64,000 nt of DNA from Flavobacteriales bacterium (GTDB lineage Bacteria > Bacteroidota > Bacteroidia > Flavobacteriales_C > GCA-002722245). The first letter of the stretch is position 1. Each line of letters starts with the position of its first letter. The stretch covers positions 1 through 64,000 of the forward strand of contig PBLA01000029.1 in NCBI GenBank assembly GCA_002722245.1, given 5' to 3'. Both the position numbers and the translations under genes were made by a program. The notes beneath the pieces are model-generated. The model was not told the DNA's origin. It did not search any database and saw nothing but the letters and a program-made list of their open reading frames with translations. Below are positions 120 to 17,612 of this stretch, piece after piece.

Positions 120-1748
120 TCATTCCTTAAGGCAACGTACAGAGCAGCCGCGCGCGCGGTTGTAGGTGCGCATGTAGGCATCGCTATTCTTGAAGAACAG
201 GCTGAGCGCAACTGTACCGCTAACCGTACTACTCCAATAGTTACCGTTGGTACCTACACGGTAGAGCGAACCATTGTGGTTGATACGGGAGCCCGCCGAG
301 GGCAATTTTAACACAGAGGCAAAAGCACCGGCGCGATTGTTTTGTGCACTTCCTGTACCCCAATAACCCGGACCGCCATTATTACGTTCTGCTTCCCATT
401 CAGCCTCTGTAGGAATACGCCAACCGCTTGGGCAAGGGTTGTTGGTAGCGCTTTCTCCATTCCATAGGTTATCATCTTGGGTACTTCTCCAATCATGGGA
501 GCTACCTTCGGTAATGAAATTTCCATGGCCAGGTGAGTCCGCATTAGTGGAGGTTGTACTTGAAGATCTGTCTTGATGCCCGTCATCTGCTCGTCCCCAT
601 TGGAACAAATCACCGTAGGAATTAGCATCGTCAAAAGAAGTTGCTACTTGTGAAGCTCCTAAGTTACGATCCATCCAACACTCCCCTGTAGTGGATGAAA
701 CTGTTCCATAGGTAACACTCCCGCCATTATAAGTCCACGTTACTGTTGATGTTCCACAGGTGAATGCACTGTTCACCGTTCTATTCAATGTACAAGTTTG
801 CCCACCTATGTCTATAGCGAAACTTGCTGTACCATTACCGGAGGGTGTTCCGCTGATATTATAGGTAACACTTCCCGCACCGGAGGCAAAATCCCCCGCC
901 GAGAGGGTTGCCGTTAAGCCTGTAACACCCGTTGAGGTTACTGTTTGTCCGTTGTGGTCACCATTATTACCTCCTGTGTAAGGGATTTTACTGCTTACGC
1001 TACTGGCAGCTACACTCTCAGTAAGTGTACCATAATCGGTTGCTGAACCACAGGTTAACCCTGTAATTGTCCCCGAGTTTTTATTCGCTTCCTCAATAAT
1101 GTGCCAATTTGTTCCATCACTTATGATTTGAACAACATGGGTGTAGGAATCTAGGGCGTATGTGGTTGAGCCTTCAACGGTTTCACTTGCGTTTCCATCG
1201 ATGGTGATATCATCTCCATCGGTATCGATGTTTTTAATGTAGTAAACTCTACCAGTGTTGCTTGCTGCTGCAGGAAGGGTAACGGTATAAGGCCCTGTGT
1301 TACATAATACAACATTGTAAGTGTTATCCAATGTTGTTGCTGAAGTAATGGTATTTACTTTATAGCCCATACTGGATTGGATATCTAATCCACTTGCTGG
1401 TGAAGTGGTTCCAATACCTACATCTCCATCGTTTTGAATGGTTACCCTATCGGTTCCATTGTTGGATATTCTTAAATCGGTTGAACCTGATGCTGGTATT
1501 AATACATCCCACTTGGCGGTTGCTCCTGTACCCGAGTTATAAATTTCAACTCCAGTAACATCGTTGGCACCGTTTTGTTCGTTTTCAATCCTTACTACAG
1601 AGGAATCTTTACCAGAGCCACTGTGGTTGTTAATATGTAAAAGTGCATCGCTATCAGGCGTGCTACCATCGGTGTTTATTCCCACATTTTGGGCTTGTGT
1701 GTAATAAAAGCTTGATGTTATGATTATGGAGAGTACTATTTTTTTCAT
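120..1748 (-). CDS. Secreted FISUMP-domain surface protein with tail-fibre-like N-terminal half
   Basis: A 542-residue protein with a signal peptide (residues 1-20, cleavage after TQAQ). Residues about 21-225 are Gly/Thr/Asp-rich beta repeats (NVGINTDGS, VGIGTTSPASG, TLPAAA) of the kind seen in fibre-like adhesins of Bacteroidota. Residues about 225-330 look like further beta-sandwich repeats. From about 335 to the end there is a 'Fibrobacter succinogenes major paralogous domain' (FISUMP): CWMDRNLGASQVA, LFQWGR, NPCPSGWRIPTEAEWE and a C-terminal YWSSTVSG segment. FISUMP domains are C-type-lectin-like folds on secreted proteins, and ligands are usually unknown. No T9SS C-terminal domain is evident. 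Its N-terminal ~205 residues are paralogous to the gene just upstream (1754-2425), five bases away, so the two probably share a transcript. Confidence 0.8.
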   Translation of the reverse strand: MKKIVLSIIITSSFYYTQAQNVGINTDGSTPDSDALLHINNHSGSGKDSSVVRIENEQNGANDVTGVEIYNSGTGATAKWDVLIPASGSTDLRISNNGTDRVTIQNDGDVGIGTTSPASGLDIQSSMGYKVNTITSATTLDNTYNVVLCNTGPYTVTLPAAASNTGRVYYIKNIDTDGDDITIDGNASETVEGSTTYALDSYTHVVQIISDGTNWHIIEEANKNSGTITGLTCGSATDYGTLTESVAASSVSSKIPYTGGNNGDHNGQTVTSTGVTGLTATLSAGDFASGAGSVTYNISGTPSGNGTASFAIDIGGQTCTLNRTVNSAFTCGTSTVTWTYNGGSVTYGTVSSTTGECWMDRNLGASQVATSFDDANSYGDLFQWGRADDGHQDRSSSTTSTNADSPGHGNFITEGSSHDWRSTQDDNLWNGESATNNPCPSGWRIPTEAEWEAERNNGGPGYWGTGSAQNNRAGAFASVLKLPSAGSRINHNGSLYRVGTNGNYWSSTVSGTVALSLFFKNSDAYMRTYNRARGCSVRCLKE

Positions 1749-1753
1749 CCTAA

Positions 1754-2425
1754 TTAATTTGAATTAGATATTATGTGCCAATTTGAACCGTCGGAAATAA
1801 TGGTTATTTGTTGATTGTAATCTTCTAATGCGTAAGTGGTTGCACCGTTTATGGTTTCGCTTCCGTTACCATCAATTGTTATGTCATCGCCATCGGTATC
1901 GATGTTTTTTATTTTATAAACTCTTCCTGTACAACCTGAAGCGGCTGGTAGGGTAACAGTGTATGCGCCAGTGTTGCAAAAAACTACGAGGTGTGTATTA
2001 TCCAATGTAGTTGCCGATGTGATTGTTGTTAGGGAAAGTCCCATACTTGTTTGTACATCAAATCCGCTTGCTGGCGAGGTTGTTCCTACACCTACATCGC
2101 CATCATTTTGAATGGTTACATGATCGGAACCGTTATTATTAATGCGTAAATCTGTACTTCCCGAGGCTGGTATGTACATATTCCATGTTGCAGTGGCTCC
2201 TGTTGCGGAGTTGGATATTTGAAGTCCTGTTACGTCGTTAGCGCCGTTTTGCTCATTTTCTATCCTAACAATAGACGAATCGGAACTAGACGCACTGTGG
2301 TTATTAACGTGTACTAGCGCATCCCCATCGGGATTGCTCCCATCGGTGTTAAAGCCTATTCCTTGTCCGTAGCTGAGTGGGCTTATGGCTAGAAACAGTA
2401 TGTATATAATTTTTTTGAGTTGCAT
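1754..2425 (-). CDS. Secreted tail-fibre-like protein, short paralogue of the FISUMP protein N-terminus
   Basis: The start is set at the ATG at 2425 (MQLKKIIYILFLAISPLSYG), which gives a clean signal peptide. An ATG three codons upstream would overlap the stop of the neighbouring gene. The mature ~200 residues match the N-terminal half of the 120-1748 protein nearly block by block (SDSSIVRIENEQNGANDVTG, PASGSTDLRINNNG, ITSATTLDN, KNIDTDGDDITIDGNGSET, ISDGSNWHII) and stop where that protein continues into its FISUMP half. This indicates a local duplication with loss, or gain, of the C-terminal module. No sorting domain, membrane anchor or catalytic motif is visible. It lies between two other secreted-protein genes on the same strand with almost no spacing and is probably co-transcribed. 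Function unknown. Confidence 0.75.
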   Translation of the reverse strand: MQLKKIIYILFLAISPLSYGQGIGFNTDGSNPDGDALVHVNNHSASSSDSSIVRIENEQNGANDVTGLQISNSATGATATWNMYIPASGSTDLRINNNGSDHVTIQNDGDVGVGTTSPASGFDVQTSMGLSLTTITSATTLDNTHLVVFCNTGAYTVTLPAASGCTGRVYKIKNIDTDGDDITIDGNGSETINGATTYALEDYNQQITIISDGSNWHIISNSN

Positions 2426-2426
2426 A

Positions 2427-3629
2427 TTAATCAATTAGTATAACATCGTAATCATAAAACTTACCATTACTCATGCTTGCCGAAACAAAGTATTTACCGC
2501 CTTCTCCTTGGATGACGTTGTTAATTACATTGGCCCCTTGTTGGATGGTTAAAACATCGTTAACAATGAGTTTCCCAAGGGCATCGTAAATTTTTAGGCT
2601 TAGTGTACCGCCTTCGGTGGAGTTGATGAGGATGTTTACCTCTCCATCCGAAGGGTTAGGGTAAAGGCTTGTTATTCCCAGACCTCCACCGCAACTGCAA
2701 GTTTTAATATCAGAGTGGGCAGATGTTCCATCGAAATCTACTTGTTTTAAGCGGTAGTAATCCACCTCTTGATTGCTGTTGACTTTTACGGGTTGCTCGT
2801 AGTTAATTACCGTGGTGGAATTTCCTGCACCTTGCACGCTGTCAATAGTGCTCCATGAGGTACCATCGGTGGAGTGTTGGATTTCGAAATGGGAGTTGTT
2901 TATTTCGGCGGCTGTTGTCCATTTTATTACTGTTTGGTTATCAATGCATTTTGGCTCAAAAGAGATGAGCTCTACAGGTAATGGCGTAACGCTGCTCACC
3001 AATGCCCATGAACGGAAAAAGTTGGCTTTGGCTACTGTAACTGCTGATAGGGTGTTGGAAGTTGTGTTAAGCGTTCCCGATAGGGTTACATCATGCCATT
3101 GTGAAGCGGTGGAGTTCCACCGTTGTGGGAAGATGTCTGCTTCACTTAGTGTATTATTTGTTGCTGTTACTTCATCATCATCATAAGTAAAAGAGAGGGT
3201 TACATCGGGTTTATCGGTGTATCCATTGGCATCCATAATCCAAAAGCGGTCAACAACATTAGCAGAGTTATCTGTAGCGCTTGAATTATCCATATTGGTT
3301 ACATCCGATGGTTTATAATCGGATACTTTATAATTATCCGTTCCATTATTATCGGTATAACTTGAAAACTTGATGTTTCCGCTACCGGTTCCTGCTCCTG
3401 TAATGTTTACACTGGAAGGAATTTTAGATTCGGAAGCGTTGGTAGCCGTAGTGGCTGTTGTAAATGGAAGGGTGTAGGTTCCTGTATTTGTCCCTATGTT
3501 CCACTTTACTTGATTTTTTTCGTGTTTGGTGATGATGTTTCCGCCTGTGCCCGAGGTGGCTAGTGCGTTGGAATTTCCGTTTGCCAAAACCACAAAAACC
3601 TCATCGGTAGTTGCGGCTGTATTTAACAC
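2427..3629 (-). CDS. T9SS-sorted surface protein; real start lies upstream and is out of frame
   Basis: The longest conventional reading starts at a GTG (3629) and gives 400 residues with no signal peptide. The same frame, however, continues upstream with a clear signal peptide (SSKFFLTLFLCFFLQFSGYS, encoded at 3725-3666) that has no ATG, GTG or TTG before an in-frame stop at 3774-3776. A conserved ATG leader at 3798-3721 lies in another frame, across an (AT)11 tract. The body is low-complexity beta, with the usual Bacteroidota segment 'PLPVELISFEPKCIDNQTVI' near residue 215 and a fibronectin-like stretch. The C-terminal ~80 residues (SLYPNPSDGEVNIL to YDYDVILID) form a type A T9SS sorting domain. 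It heads the minus-strand group 3629-120. As assembled, the secreted form would not be made. Ligand unknown. Confidence 0.7.
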   Translation of the reverse strand: MLNTAATTDEVFVVLANGNSNALATSGTGGNIITKHEKNQVKWNIGTNTGTYTLPFTTATTATNASESKIPSSVNITGAGTGSGNIKFSSYTDNNGTDNYKVSDYKPSDVTNMDNSSATDNSANVVDRFWIMDANGYTDKPDVTLSFTYDDDEVTATNNTLSEADIFPQRWNSTASQWHDVTLSGTLNTTSNTLSAVTVAKANFFRSWALVSSVTPLPVELISFEPKCIDNQTVIKWTTAAEINNSHFEIQHSTDGTSWSTIDSVQGAGNSTTVINYEQPVKVNSNQEVDYYRLKQVDFDGTSAHSDIKTCSCGGGLGITSLYPNPSDGEVNILINSTEGGTLSLKIYDALGKLIVNDVLTIQQGANVINNVIQGEGGKYFVSASMSNGKFYDYDVILID

Positions 3630-3720
3630 TAGGTAGGCATCATCTTTAATGACAACACGAGATTGTGAATAGCCCGAAAACTGAAGAAAAAAACAAAGAA
3701 ATAAAGTAAGGAAAAACTTG

Positions 3721-3798
3721 CTAGAGTGCGATTTTAATATATATATATATATATATATGGCTTTTAAGGGCTGTTATTGGTGAATGTTTTGTTAACAT
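3721..3798 (-). other. Conserved ATG leader ORF of copy A, out of frame with the signal peptide
   Basis: The ATG at 3798 opens MLTKHSPITALKSH followed by an IYIYIYI run encoded by the (AT)11 tract, then terminates at TAG (3721-3723). The second copy at 8677 encodes MLTKHSAITALKSY-IYI. Of the differences between the first 14 codons, some are synonymous (TTA/TTG, TCA/TCT), as expected for translated DNA. Adding one AT unit, or removing two, joins this leader in frame to the signal peptide of the T9SS gene. It may be the true start of that gene in an OFF phase, or a leader peptide. Confidence 0.6.
3737..3758. repeat. (AT)11 dinucleotide tract, candidate phase-variation switch
   Basis: Twenty-two bases of perfect alternating AT lie between the conserved leader codons and the signal-peptide codons of the 2427-3629 gene. 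Tracts with a unit count divisible by three would make the leader and body one reading frame; 11 does not. Confidence 0.9.
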
Positions 3799-4213
3799 TT
3801 TTATCTAATTATTTCTCAAAAAAGCAATTACGCAGTAAAGGTATCGTGTTTCATTTTACCATCAAAAAATTATCAAAACTATTTTTTAACACTATAACCT
3901 GCACAATTTAAAGTTTATTGTTGGACTTTTTAATACAAAAAAGTGGGTTGAAACGATTTTTTAAACAAGATTAAAAATATTTAATATCGTTGTAATTCAG
4001 TAGCTTAATACTGCTTGTAGATGATTTTTAAATTTTGATTTGGGTGGTGTTTTGGTTTTTCTGCTATTTATTATGGAATAACAGAAGTAAAATTGATTTA
4101 TTACCACTTTACTTTTAACACATCAACACTTTATAGTGATGTAAAATGTGTTTAAATACAAATATTCATATGAATAAATGTAGTTAAGTCAGTTTTTTAG
4201 TATATTTAGACTT

Positions 4214-14819: not shown

Positions 14820-17612
14820 ATGACTTCATTATTATCCAATCTTTCTAAGATATTTTCATTTGTAGGTCTATACTTTCTTTTTAACACTGGTGTTTTTGCT
14901 CAATGTGAGGGCGGGAAAGAGGACCATGGGCATGGTACATGGTATGTGAATTTAGAAGAAACAGATCACCCGTTATACACAGGTGTTGTTAGATGTTCGT
15001 TCCAAAGAGATGATATCGTAGGCGGTAAATATGGGGCATTAGATAAAGGGATGTTACAAGAAGATAATGATGCGAAATACTGTGGTATGTGTGTGGAAGC
15101 AACCGGGCCTGCAGGTTCAACTATTATTCAAATTGTAGATGAATGTCCAGATTGTTGGGATCGAAGTGCAGGTGGACAGATATTAACGGGTACAAATACG
15201 AAATTTGGAGATATTGATTTATCACCAGCAGCTTTTGAAGCTGTGGTAGGACATCAAGATATAGGAATTGGTGATTTTGATTGGCATGAGGTTTCATGTC
15301 CTTGGACAACTCCGATTGATATTATTGTAGAAGGTTCAAATCAATGGTATGCTAAAGTGATCATTTCAAACCATGTTAATCGAATCGCGAAAGTGGAGGT
15401 TCAGCAAGGAGGACAATGGATTTTGATGGAAAGAGGTGAAGATAATGGATGGGTTAAGGGGAGTATTAATGAAGCATCTAAATCTTTTAGAATAACTGAT
15501 ATCTATGGGAATGAAGTGATTGCAGAAGGGATAGATTTTACACAAAATCCTACTAATTCCAAGACTTCAATAAACGGTAATTTTCCAACTTGTAATAACA
15601 ACGGAGGAACAGACGGAGGAACAGACGGAGGAACAGACGGAGGAACAGATGGCGGAACAGATGGCGGAACAGATGGCGGAACAGACGGCGGAACGAATAG
15701 TGGTGATCCTTGTTCATCTCCAGGTTGGGAATTAGGAGAAACTTATCAAATTGGAAATAAAGTTTTGCACAATGGAAAAGTTTATTCGTTAACAGCAGCA
15801 GCTGCATGGGCAGGACAATCTGCCTATGAGCCTGGCGTTGGATGGGCTTGGGAACAAGCTTGGAAATTAGAAAATGAGACTTGTGGAAACACTGGCGGTA
15901 CAGATGGGGGAAGTTCGGGTGGTAATATCGGGTCGTGCGGATATCCTAACTACGAACAAGGTATGACGTTAGAAGTAGGTGATAAAGTTGAGCATAATGG
16001 AGGAGTTTACGAGGTGAAAGTAGCAACATGGGCAAGTCAAGGTGGTCCATATGAACCAGGAGTTGGATGGGCTCAAGGAGAAGCTTGGATTACGACAGGA
16101 GAAACATGTGATGGAAGTTCTGACGGTGGTAATACTGGAGGAACAGACGGAGGGTCAACAGACGGAGGGTCAACAGGTGGTTCATGTAACTACCCTAACT
16201 GGTCTTTAGGAATGGCTGTAGAAACAGGAGACAAGGTTGTTCACAACGGAAAGGTATATCAAGCAAAGGTTGGTTCTTGGGCCAGTGAGCCTAACACTGG
16301 TTATGAGCCAGGAGTTGGTTGGGCTCAGGAGAGTGCTTGGAGTGAAACAGGTGAAAGTTGTAGTGGTGGTGGAACAGGAGGCAGTACTGGAGGGTCAACA
16401 GGAGGAACTGATAGTGGTGGAACAGGAGGCAGTACTGGAGGATCAACAGGAGGAACTGATAGTGGTGGAACAGGAGGCAGTACTGGAGGATCAACAGGAG
16501 GAACTGATAGTGGTGAAACAGGAGGTAGTACTGGAGGATCAACAGGAGGAACTGATAGTGGTGAAACAGGAGGTAGTACTGGAGGATCAACAGGAGGTAG
16601 CACTGGAGGATCAAGTGATGGAACTGATAGCGGATCGAATGGTCAGGCTTGTTCCGATAAAAAAGATCATGGTCATGGAACATGGTATGTAAATTTAGAA
16701 GAAACAGATCACCCATTATACACAGGGGTTGTGAGATGTTCTTTTGAAAGAGATGATATTGTAGGCGGTAAATATGGAGCGTTGGACAAAGGAATGCTAC
16801 AGGAGGACAACAATGCCAAATATTGTGGAATGTGTGTTGAGGCTGATGGTCCTGCAGGTACTGCTATTATTCAAATTGTAGACGAATGTCCAGATTGTTG
16901 GGATAGAAGTTCAAGTGGACAGATATTAACGGGTACAAATACAAAATTTGGCGACATTGATTTATCACCTGCAGCGTTTGAAGCTGTTGTAGGGCATCAG
17001 GACGTTGGGATTGGTGATTTTGATTGGCATGAGGTTTCATGTCCATGGACAACCCCAATTCATATTATTATTGAAGGTTCGAATCAATGGTATGCTAAAG
17101 TTATTATTGGTAATCACAAAAATAGAATTGCTTCTGTTGAGGTTTCTGATAATGGTGGATCATCATGGGTATCAATGGAACGAGGAATGGATAATGGATG
17201 GGTGAAAGGAAGTTTGTCCTCTCCAACCAAAGAGTTGAAAATTACAGATATTTACGGTAGTGAAATTATCATGGAAAACGTTGATTTCTCTTCTACAATT
17301 ACAAAGAGAAAAGATAATGGAACAGAAAATTTCCCAGCTTGTGGTGAAGTAAAATCGTTGAATCTTCCAAATACATTGGACTACGTTACGGTTTTTCCTA
17401 ATCCTGCAAATACAAGAATTACTTTTGATGGTGTTGAGGAGGTTAAATTGATTGAGATCCTAAATGTAAATGGTCAGGTTCTTGCAAGTAAATCATTTAA
17501 TCGTAGTATGGCACAGATAGGGCTAGATATTTCGAAATTTCCAGCTGGAATTTATGTGGCTAAATTAACAGGATTGAATAATACAGGTGTAGTTAATTTT
17601 GTGAAAAAATAA
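14820..17612 (+). CDS. T9SS-sorted double-expansin protein with three CBM5/12-like modules
   Basis: A 930-residue secreted protein with a signal peptide (1-28). Order: expansin-like module 1 (29-258), a GGTD repeat linker (262-293), three CBM5/12-type modules (about 297-355, 372-430, 456-514; each with VxHNGxVY and a Trp-rich end such as YEPGVGWA), a 48-bp-repeat Gly/Ser/Thr linker (520-605), expansin module 2 (611-850) and a type A T9SS domain (FPNPANTRITF to VVNFVKK). The expansin modules have a DPBB domain with VDECPDCWDR and the conserved DLSP Asp (D133, D714), plus a D2-like half. Bacterial expansins loosen cellulose-containing walls without hydrolysis; CBM5/12 usually binds chitin or cellulose. 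The two expansin modules are nearly identical, which suggests recent internal duplication. Confidence 0.85.
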   Translation: MTSLLSNLSKIFSFVGLYFLFNTGVFAQCEGGKEDHGHGTWYVNLEETDHPLYTGVVRCSFQRDDIVGGKYGALDKGMLQEDNDAKYCGMCVEATGPAGSTIIQIVDECPDCWDRSAGGQILTGTNTKFGDIDLSPAAFEAVVGHQDIGIGDFDWHEVSCPWTTPIDIIVEGSNQWYAKVIISNHVNRIAKVEVQQGGQWILMERGEDNGWVKGSINEASKSFRITDIYGNEVIAEGIDFTQNPTNSKTSINGNFPTCNNNGGTDGGTDGGTDGGTDGGTDGGTDGGTDGGTNSGDPCSSPGWELGETYQIGNKVLHNGKVYSLTAAAAWAGQSAYEPGVGWAWEQAWKLENETCGNTGGTDGGSSGGNIGSCGYPNYEQGMTLEVGDKVEHNGGVYEVKVATWASQGGPYEPGVGWAQGEAWITTGETCDGSSDGGNTGGTDGGSTDGGSTGGSCNYPNWSLGMAVETGDKVVHNGKVYQAKVGSWASEPNTGYEPGVGWAQESAWSETGESCSGGGTGGSTGGSTGGTDSGGTGGSTGGSTGGTDSGGTGGSTGGSTGGTDSGETGGSTGGSTGGTDSGETGGSTGGSTGGSTGGSSDGTDSGSNGQACSDKKDHGHGTWYVNLEETDHPLYTGVVRCSFERDDIVGGKYGALDKGMLQEDNNAKYCGMCVEADGPAGTAIIQIVDECPDCWDRSSSGQILTGTNTKFGDIDLSPAAFEAVVGHQDVGIGDFDWHEVSCPWTTPIHIIIEGSNQWYAKVIIGNHKNRIASVEVSDNGGSSWVSMERGMDNGWVKGSLSSPTKELKITDIYGSEIIMENVDFSSTITKRKDNGTENFPACGEVKSLNLPNTLDYVTVFPNPANTRITFDGVEEVKLIEILNVNGQVLASKSFNRSMAQIGLDISKFPAGIYVAKLTGLNNTGVVNFVKK
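15603..15698 (+). repeat. 12-bp tandem coding repeats (GGTD linker)
   Basis: Eight or so tandem units of the type GGAACAGAYGGM encode the Gly-Gly-Thr-Asp linker between expansin module 1 and the first CBM. Neighbouring units are identical in groups (GACGGA, then GATGGC), pointing to slippage or unequal exchange within the gene. Confidence 0.8.
16377..16568 (+). repeat. Four 48-bp tandem coding repeats (GGSTGGSTGGTDSG linker)
   Basis: Four in-frame copies of a 48-bp unit encode GGSTGGSTGGTDSGGT (twice) and GGSTGGSTGGTDSGET (twice); a partial unit follows. They differ by very few bases. This is the linker before expansin module 2. It is coding, so it is not a CRISPR array. Confidence 0.9.

Follow-up and report, generated by a model that had tools for sequence, protein, structure and literature searches.

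The slippage of an AT dinucleotide repeat probably turns on and off a predicted cell-surface protein of a Flavobacteriales bacterium. The gene was found in a stretch of 64,000 nucleotides (hereafter, the window), is encoded on the minus strand, and its product carries a sorting domain of the T9SS. We consider it quite likely that the locus is a contingency locus, where phase variation is translational and an AT tract acts as a frame switch on a T9SS protein. The gene would begin at ATG 3798, cross the tract, and continue into the signal peptide. Slipped-strand mispairing would lead to the gain or loss of AT units, which would bring the signal peptide and all that lies downstream into the frame of the start or take them out of it. 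Because the units have two bases, one phase in three would join the start to the signal peptide. With the 11 units of the assembled sequence, the gene would be OFF, since translation would meet a TAG after 25 codons. With 9 or 12 units, it would be ON and yield a protein of about 460 residues, whose signal peptide is preceded by a long n-region that includes a (YI)n stretch. The use of ATG 3798 as a start and the change of tract length within populations are both predictions made from the sequence. If they are true, then a repeat-slippage switch on a T9SS protein represents a second, and simpler, route of surface diversification in these abundant bacteria, since most of what is known about phase variation in Bacteroidota concerns DNA inversion.

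Anatomy of the locus

The elements of the putative switch follow each other closely on the minus strand. An A-rich stretch (GATAAAAATG) precedes ATG 3798, which opens a leader (3759..3798) whose 40 nt encode MLTKHSPITALKS.. as far as the tract. Then comes the tract itself, a pure (AT)11 of 22 nt (3737..3758), which would set the gene ON if the unit count is divisible by 3. It is followed by T-AAAA and by the signal-peptide coding frame LKSHSSKFFLTLFLCFFLQFSGYSQS (3660..3737), which lacks a start codon of its own: ATG, GTG, and TTG are absent between the upstream stop of this frame and the h-region. The frame remains open for 437 codons (3737-2427) and closes with the stop at 2427. The leader ORF of the assembled phase has 25 codons before it is closed by a TAG (3721..3723, minus strand), which is part of a CTC TAG CAA G stretch also present in the sister species described below. 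The repeat unit is not a multiple of 3 and lies in the 5' coding part, so that only certain lengths join the start to the frame: counted from ATG 3798 through the stop of the gene, the sequence is in frame at n = 6, 9, 12, and 15 units and out of frame at n = 11. Hence, the assembled sequence contains the hydrophobic frame of a Sec signal peptide, but ATG 3798 lies in another frame. A preceding sequence-only reading of this DNA had already claimed that the T9SS gene at 2427-3629 has an in-frame upstream signal peptide without a start, that a leader running from ATG 3798 to a TAG is separated from it by (AT)11, and that adding one unit or removing two would join them. Our analysis agrees on all three points, with no ATG, GTG, or TTG before the hydrophobic core, the tract at 3758-3737, and the stop at 3723-3721. 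An LKSH repeat flanking the tract on both sides was also considered, and was taken as chance since the codons differ.

The mechanical call of this ORF starts at GTG 3629, and the called gene therefore loses its signal peptide. The locus thus shows that automatic annotation can start such genes too late. Further upstream, a possible Bacteroidota -7 box, TAGTTTTG (consensus TAnnTTTG; 3874..3881, minus strand), has its first base 83 nt from the ATG. This box would place the tract inside the transcript, but the match is weak: about 0.25 such boxes are expected by chance in the stretch searched, and none was found when the TAnnTTTG box was looked for in the sister species.

The exported part of the protein (2427..3659, minus strand) has an N-terminal part that matches no named domain and is conserved in Bacteroidota homologues, with relatives of about 30-45% identity across the phylum. 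It also includes a T9SS type A sorting domain (2460..2666, minus strand), which was identified by two profiles, PF18962 (34.5 bits for a cut-off of 27, E 2.5e-08) and TIGR04183 (32.9 bits for a cut-off of 23, E 4.8e-08). The SprA translocon is above the cut-off in 5/5 genomes of the genus and in 0/14 controls. The protein is predicted to reach the cell surface. The next gene (MQLKKIIYILFLAISPLSYGQG..; 1754..2425, minus strand) has its ATG 1 nt past the stop of the T9SS gene, and a third gene, encoding a FISUMP/Fib_succ_major domain protein (120..1748, minus strand), lies 5 nt further on. Given this spacing, the three genes likely form an operon, in which case the OFF state could lower the expression of the two downstream genes through polarity. 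Elsewhere in the window (15597-16614), there are tandem-repeat arrays with units of 12, 15, and 48 bp (98% matched in the case of the 48-bp array). All these units are multiples of 3, and the arrays resemble those of surface-protein linkers that vary in length.

The sister species, selection, and more distant homologues

The closest homologue was found in genome G004, a Flavobacteriales MAG of the same genus (JAQXEE010000106.1), on a contig that ends inside the gene. The two proteins have 81% identity over residues 1-132. The homologue has 9 units of AT at the corresponding position, and its ATG at L010:1342 reads MTKPVQISSFAQ-YIYIYI-NSYSSKKALVFFLCFFLQLSLFSQA and continues into the protein without a stop, so that a start codon shares the frame of the signal peptide. 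With a unit count divisible by 3, this copy has the length predicted for the ON phase. One arrangement is therefore seen in both species (one sequence each), with two lengths and two predicted states. The sequence-only reading had suggested comparing related genomes to see if unit counts vary and cluster at multiples of three. This was partly borne out in that the count differs (9 vs 11) and one of the two counts is divisible by three; the comparison involves a single relative, and the leader peptides of the two species (two sequences only) are hardly alike. The sequence upstream of the leader shows no clear relation between the species, which is why we call the pair close homologues and not proven orthologues. 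The start region in G004 (ATGTATG, L010:1338-1345) contains two overlapping ATGs that differ in frame. At n = 9, only the second is in frame; the first, whose alignment with ATG 3798 is slightly better, would need n = 10. If both ATGs serve, two of the three phases would be ON in this species.

In both species, the codons of the signal peptide come directly after the tract, and there is no start codon downstream of it. This matters for the possibility that the tract acts on transcription or on the mRNA rather than on the reading frame. AT/TA tracts do space promoter elements at Haemophilus hif (PMC2651432), and an (AU)11 run is capable of self-pairing, but we set promoter spacing aside as the main explanation because the tract abuts the codons of the signal peptide without a later start. 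The -7-like box, a weak match, lies upstream of both the ATG and the tract. RNA structure was rejected as well, because the fold of the region 3690-3865 is ordinary (z = 0.29); no Rfam family matched this region. A role in transcription or in the mRNA is thus very unlikely.

The comparison of the window gene with the G004 copy also informs on selection. The 168 shared codons give a dN of 0.158 and a dS of 0.735, a ratio of about 0.21, and 60 of the 109 differences are at third codon positions. The low ratio and the excess at third positions indicate purifying selection on the frame downstream of the tract, and the ratio further indicates that this is no old, decayed gene. Within the first 28 codons, which correspond to the signal peptide, the differences are evenly spread over the codon positions (9, 5, and 9), as is usual for signal peptides. 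The (AT)9 of the sister species, with its in-frame ATG, and the purifying selection downstream of the tract both favour the earlier proposal that the tract may be a reading-frame switch.

The same data bear on whether the out-of-frame copy could result from an assembly error in the tract or from a recent inactivation of the gene, with no reversible switch in either case. The draft genome consists of 34 contigs, repeat runs are error-prone, and a single out-of-frame copy, taken alone, is indistinguishable from a new mutation. However, 22 nt are short enough for ordinary reads to span, and the sister species has the tract at another length. Furthermore, the frame after the tract is intact over its 437 codons and under purifying selection, and a wrong value of n would alter the inferred phase only, not the anatomy of the switch. 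We therefore give little credit to these explanations.

We then considered 25 further homologues. All of them (25/25) have an ATG, GTG, or TTG at the signal peptide or ahead of it, none has an AT tract, and two have a homopolymer run nearby. Since the tract is missing from these homologues, it appears to be a feature of this genus among those sampled. These homologues are also relevant to the hypothesis of a non-standard start codon, such as an ATA within the tract, which would leave the gene always on and dispense with a switch. The hypothesis has some appeal: the codons of the tract in the signal-peptide frame alternate between ATA and TAT whatever its length, so that such a start would be independent of the number of units. 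Yet, ATA starts are weak and rare in bacteria, the 25 homologues use ATG, GTG, or TTG, and the sister species has an ordinary ATG in frame. A start at ATA is accordingly improbable. Each of these three rival explanations accounts for less than a frame switch does.

AT tracts elsewhere in the class

Long AT tracts are rare. Under a first-order model of the window, about 1e-6 (AT)11 tracts are expected per 3 Mb, and a scan of the class revealed (AT)9 or longer in just 17 of 395 genomes. At this frequency, it is very unlikely that two species have a tract at the same site by chance. The (AT)9 at the locus is the sole (AT)8+ tract of the G004 genome, and the genome of the window has one other, on a contig of doubtful origin (C31). 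This contig of 15,347 bases is very AT-rich, and its long ORFs are cysteine-rich, repeat-bearing, unlike the rest of the genome, and without Pfam matches; it may be contamination from a virus or a eukaryote.

Several other tracts were inspected. The idea that AT tracts are commonly found at gene starts was abandoned, because most of the further (AT)9+ tracts that we examined in the class are intergenic or unrelated to an N-terminus. The AT tract of a nadA-like gene (L047, L048, around 1502-1516) was also discarded as a frame switch: it has (AT)6-7, is constant in length in G004 and G001, and directly abuts the ATG. In a genome of the same family (G009), a SUMF1-like secreted protein is encoded on the minus strand by a gene with an (AT)13 tract (L049:1502-1528) about 40 nt before its start; this may be a repeat locus of the transcriptional or 5'-UTR type.

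In another genus of the class, a tract from the same scan splits a lipoprotein gene (genome G139). Several species of this genus have tandem arrays of lipoproteins of about 200 residues (..LPPITQTGANTFG..IYIYIP..GRFD), which we studied at loci L178-L193 (G139, G399, G407, G468, G454, and others), some of them in single-contig assemblies. These lipoproteins have no Pfam match. Many copies contain an AT alternation, of 5 to 31 nt, at one codon site, which encodes the IYIYIP strand. By a motif-based count, the alternation is 9, 10, 13, 17, 19, 27, and 31 nt long in the seven out-of-frame copies, and 5 to 20 nt long, mostly below 10, in the 19 in-frame copies. The alternations are thus longer on average in the out-of-frame copies (Mann-Whitney p 0.006; p 0.026 when at least 10 nt is compared with shorter), with p-values that are indicative only, owing to the relatedness of the copies and to a motif count made without manual curation. 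The lipoprotein arrays are therefore a second candidate family of AT-tract frame switches, and their tract-associated frame breaks give an independent hint that genes are switched by AT slippage in the class. A broader hypothesis can be tentatively formulated, which we regard as plausible though somewhat short of probable: the slippage of AT dinucleotides might be a general, so far unrecognised, mode of phase variation of exported proteins in Flavobacteriia, affecting T9SS cargo and tandem lipoprotein arrays, and operating alongside the inversion systems of Bacteroidota.

Comparison with known systems

The open-licence literature that we searched describes neither an AT-tract frame switch nor repeat-driven phase variation of T9SS proteins, which is weak evidence of absence and matches the sequence-only reading, where no such switch in a T9SS surface protein was known. 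A 2025 review of phase variation, in the part used here, covers Bacteroides mostly for invertase/inversion systems (PMC11868660). These systems resemble our proposed locus in that they switch surface structures within this phylum, and they differ in being driven by recombinases that invert DNA, whereas we propose repeat slippage.

Two other known systems are based on repeats. The first is the hif locus of Haemophilus influenzae, where the (TA)9-11 tract of hifA/hifB is proposed to space promoter elements (PMC2651432). It had been put forward initially as the comparator for a frame switch, a role that does not suit it: an AT/TA tract of similar length governs a surface structure at hif and would do so here, but the hif tract spaces a promoter and affects transcription, whereas the tract described here lies between a start codon and a signal peptide and would affect translation. 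The second is oipA of Helicobacter pylori, where CT repeats in the region coding for the signal peptide set the ON and OFF states by frame (PMC10564699). As in oipA (and also in babA and sabA), a dinucleotide tract is placed at the 5' end of a surface-protein gene, by the signal peptide (PMC10564699); the number of units sets the reading frame, and the OFF frames meet stop codons. The differences concern the units, CT in oipA and AT here; the product, an outer-membrane porin-like protein in one case and a T9SS cargo of Bacteroidota in the other; and the position of the tract, which here precedes the core of the signal peptide, in an added leader. Variation of oipA among isolates is documented, whereas our locus is known from one sequence in each of two species. 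By analogy, this locus may work like oipA, which is a closer parallel than hif.
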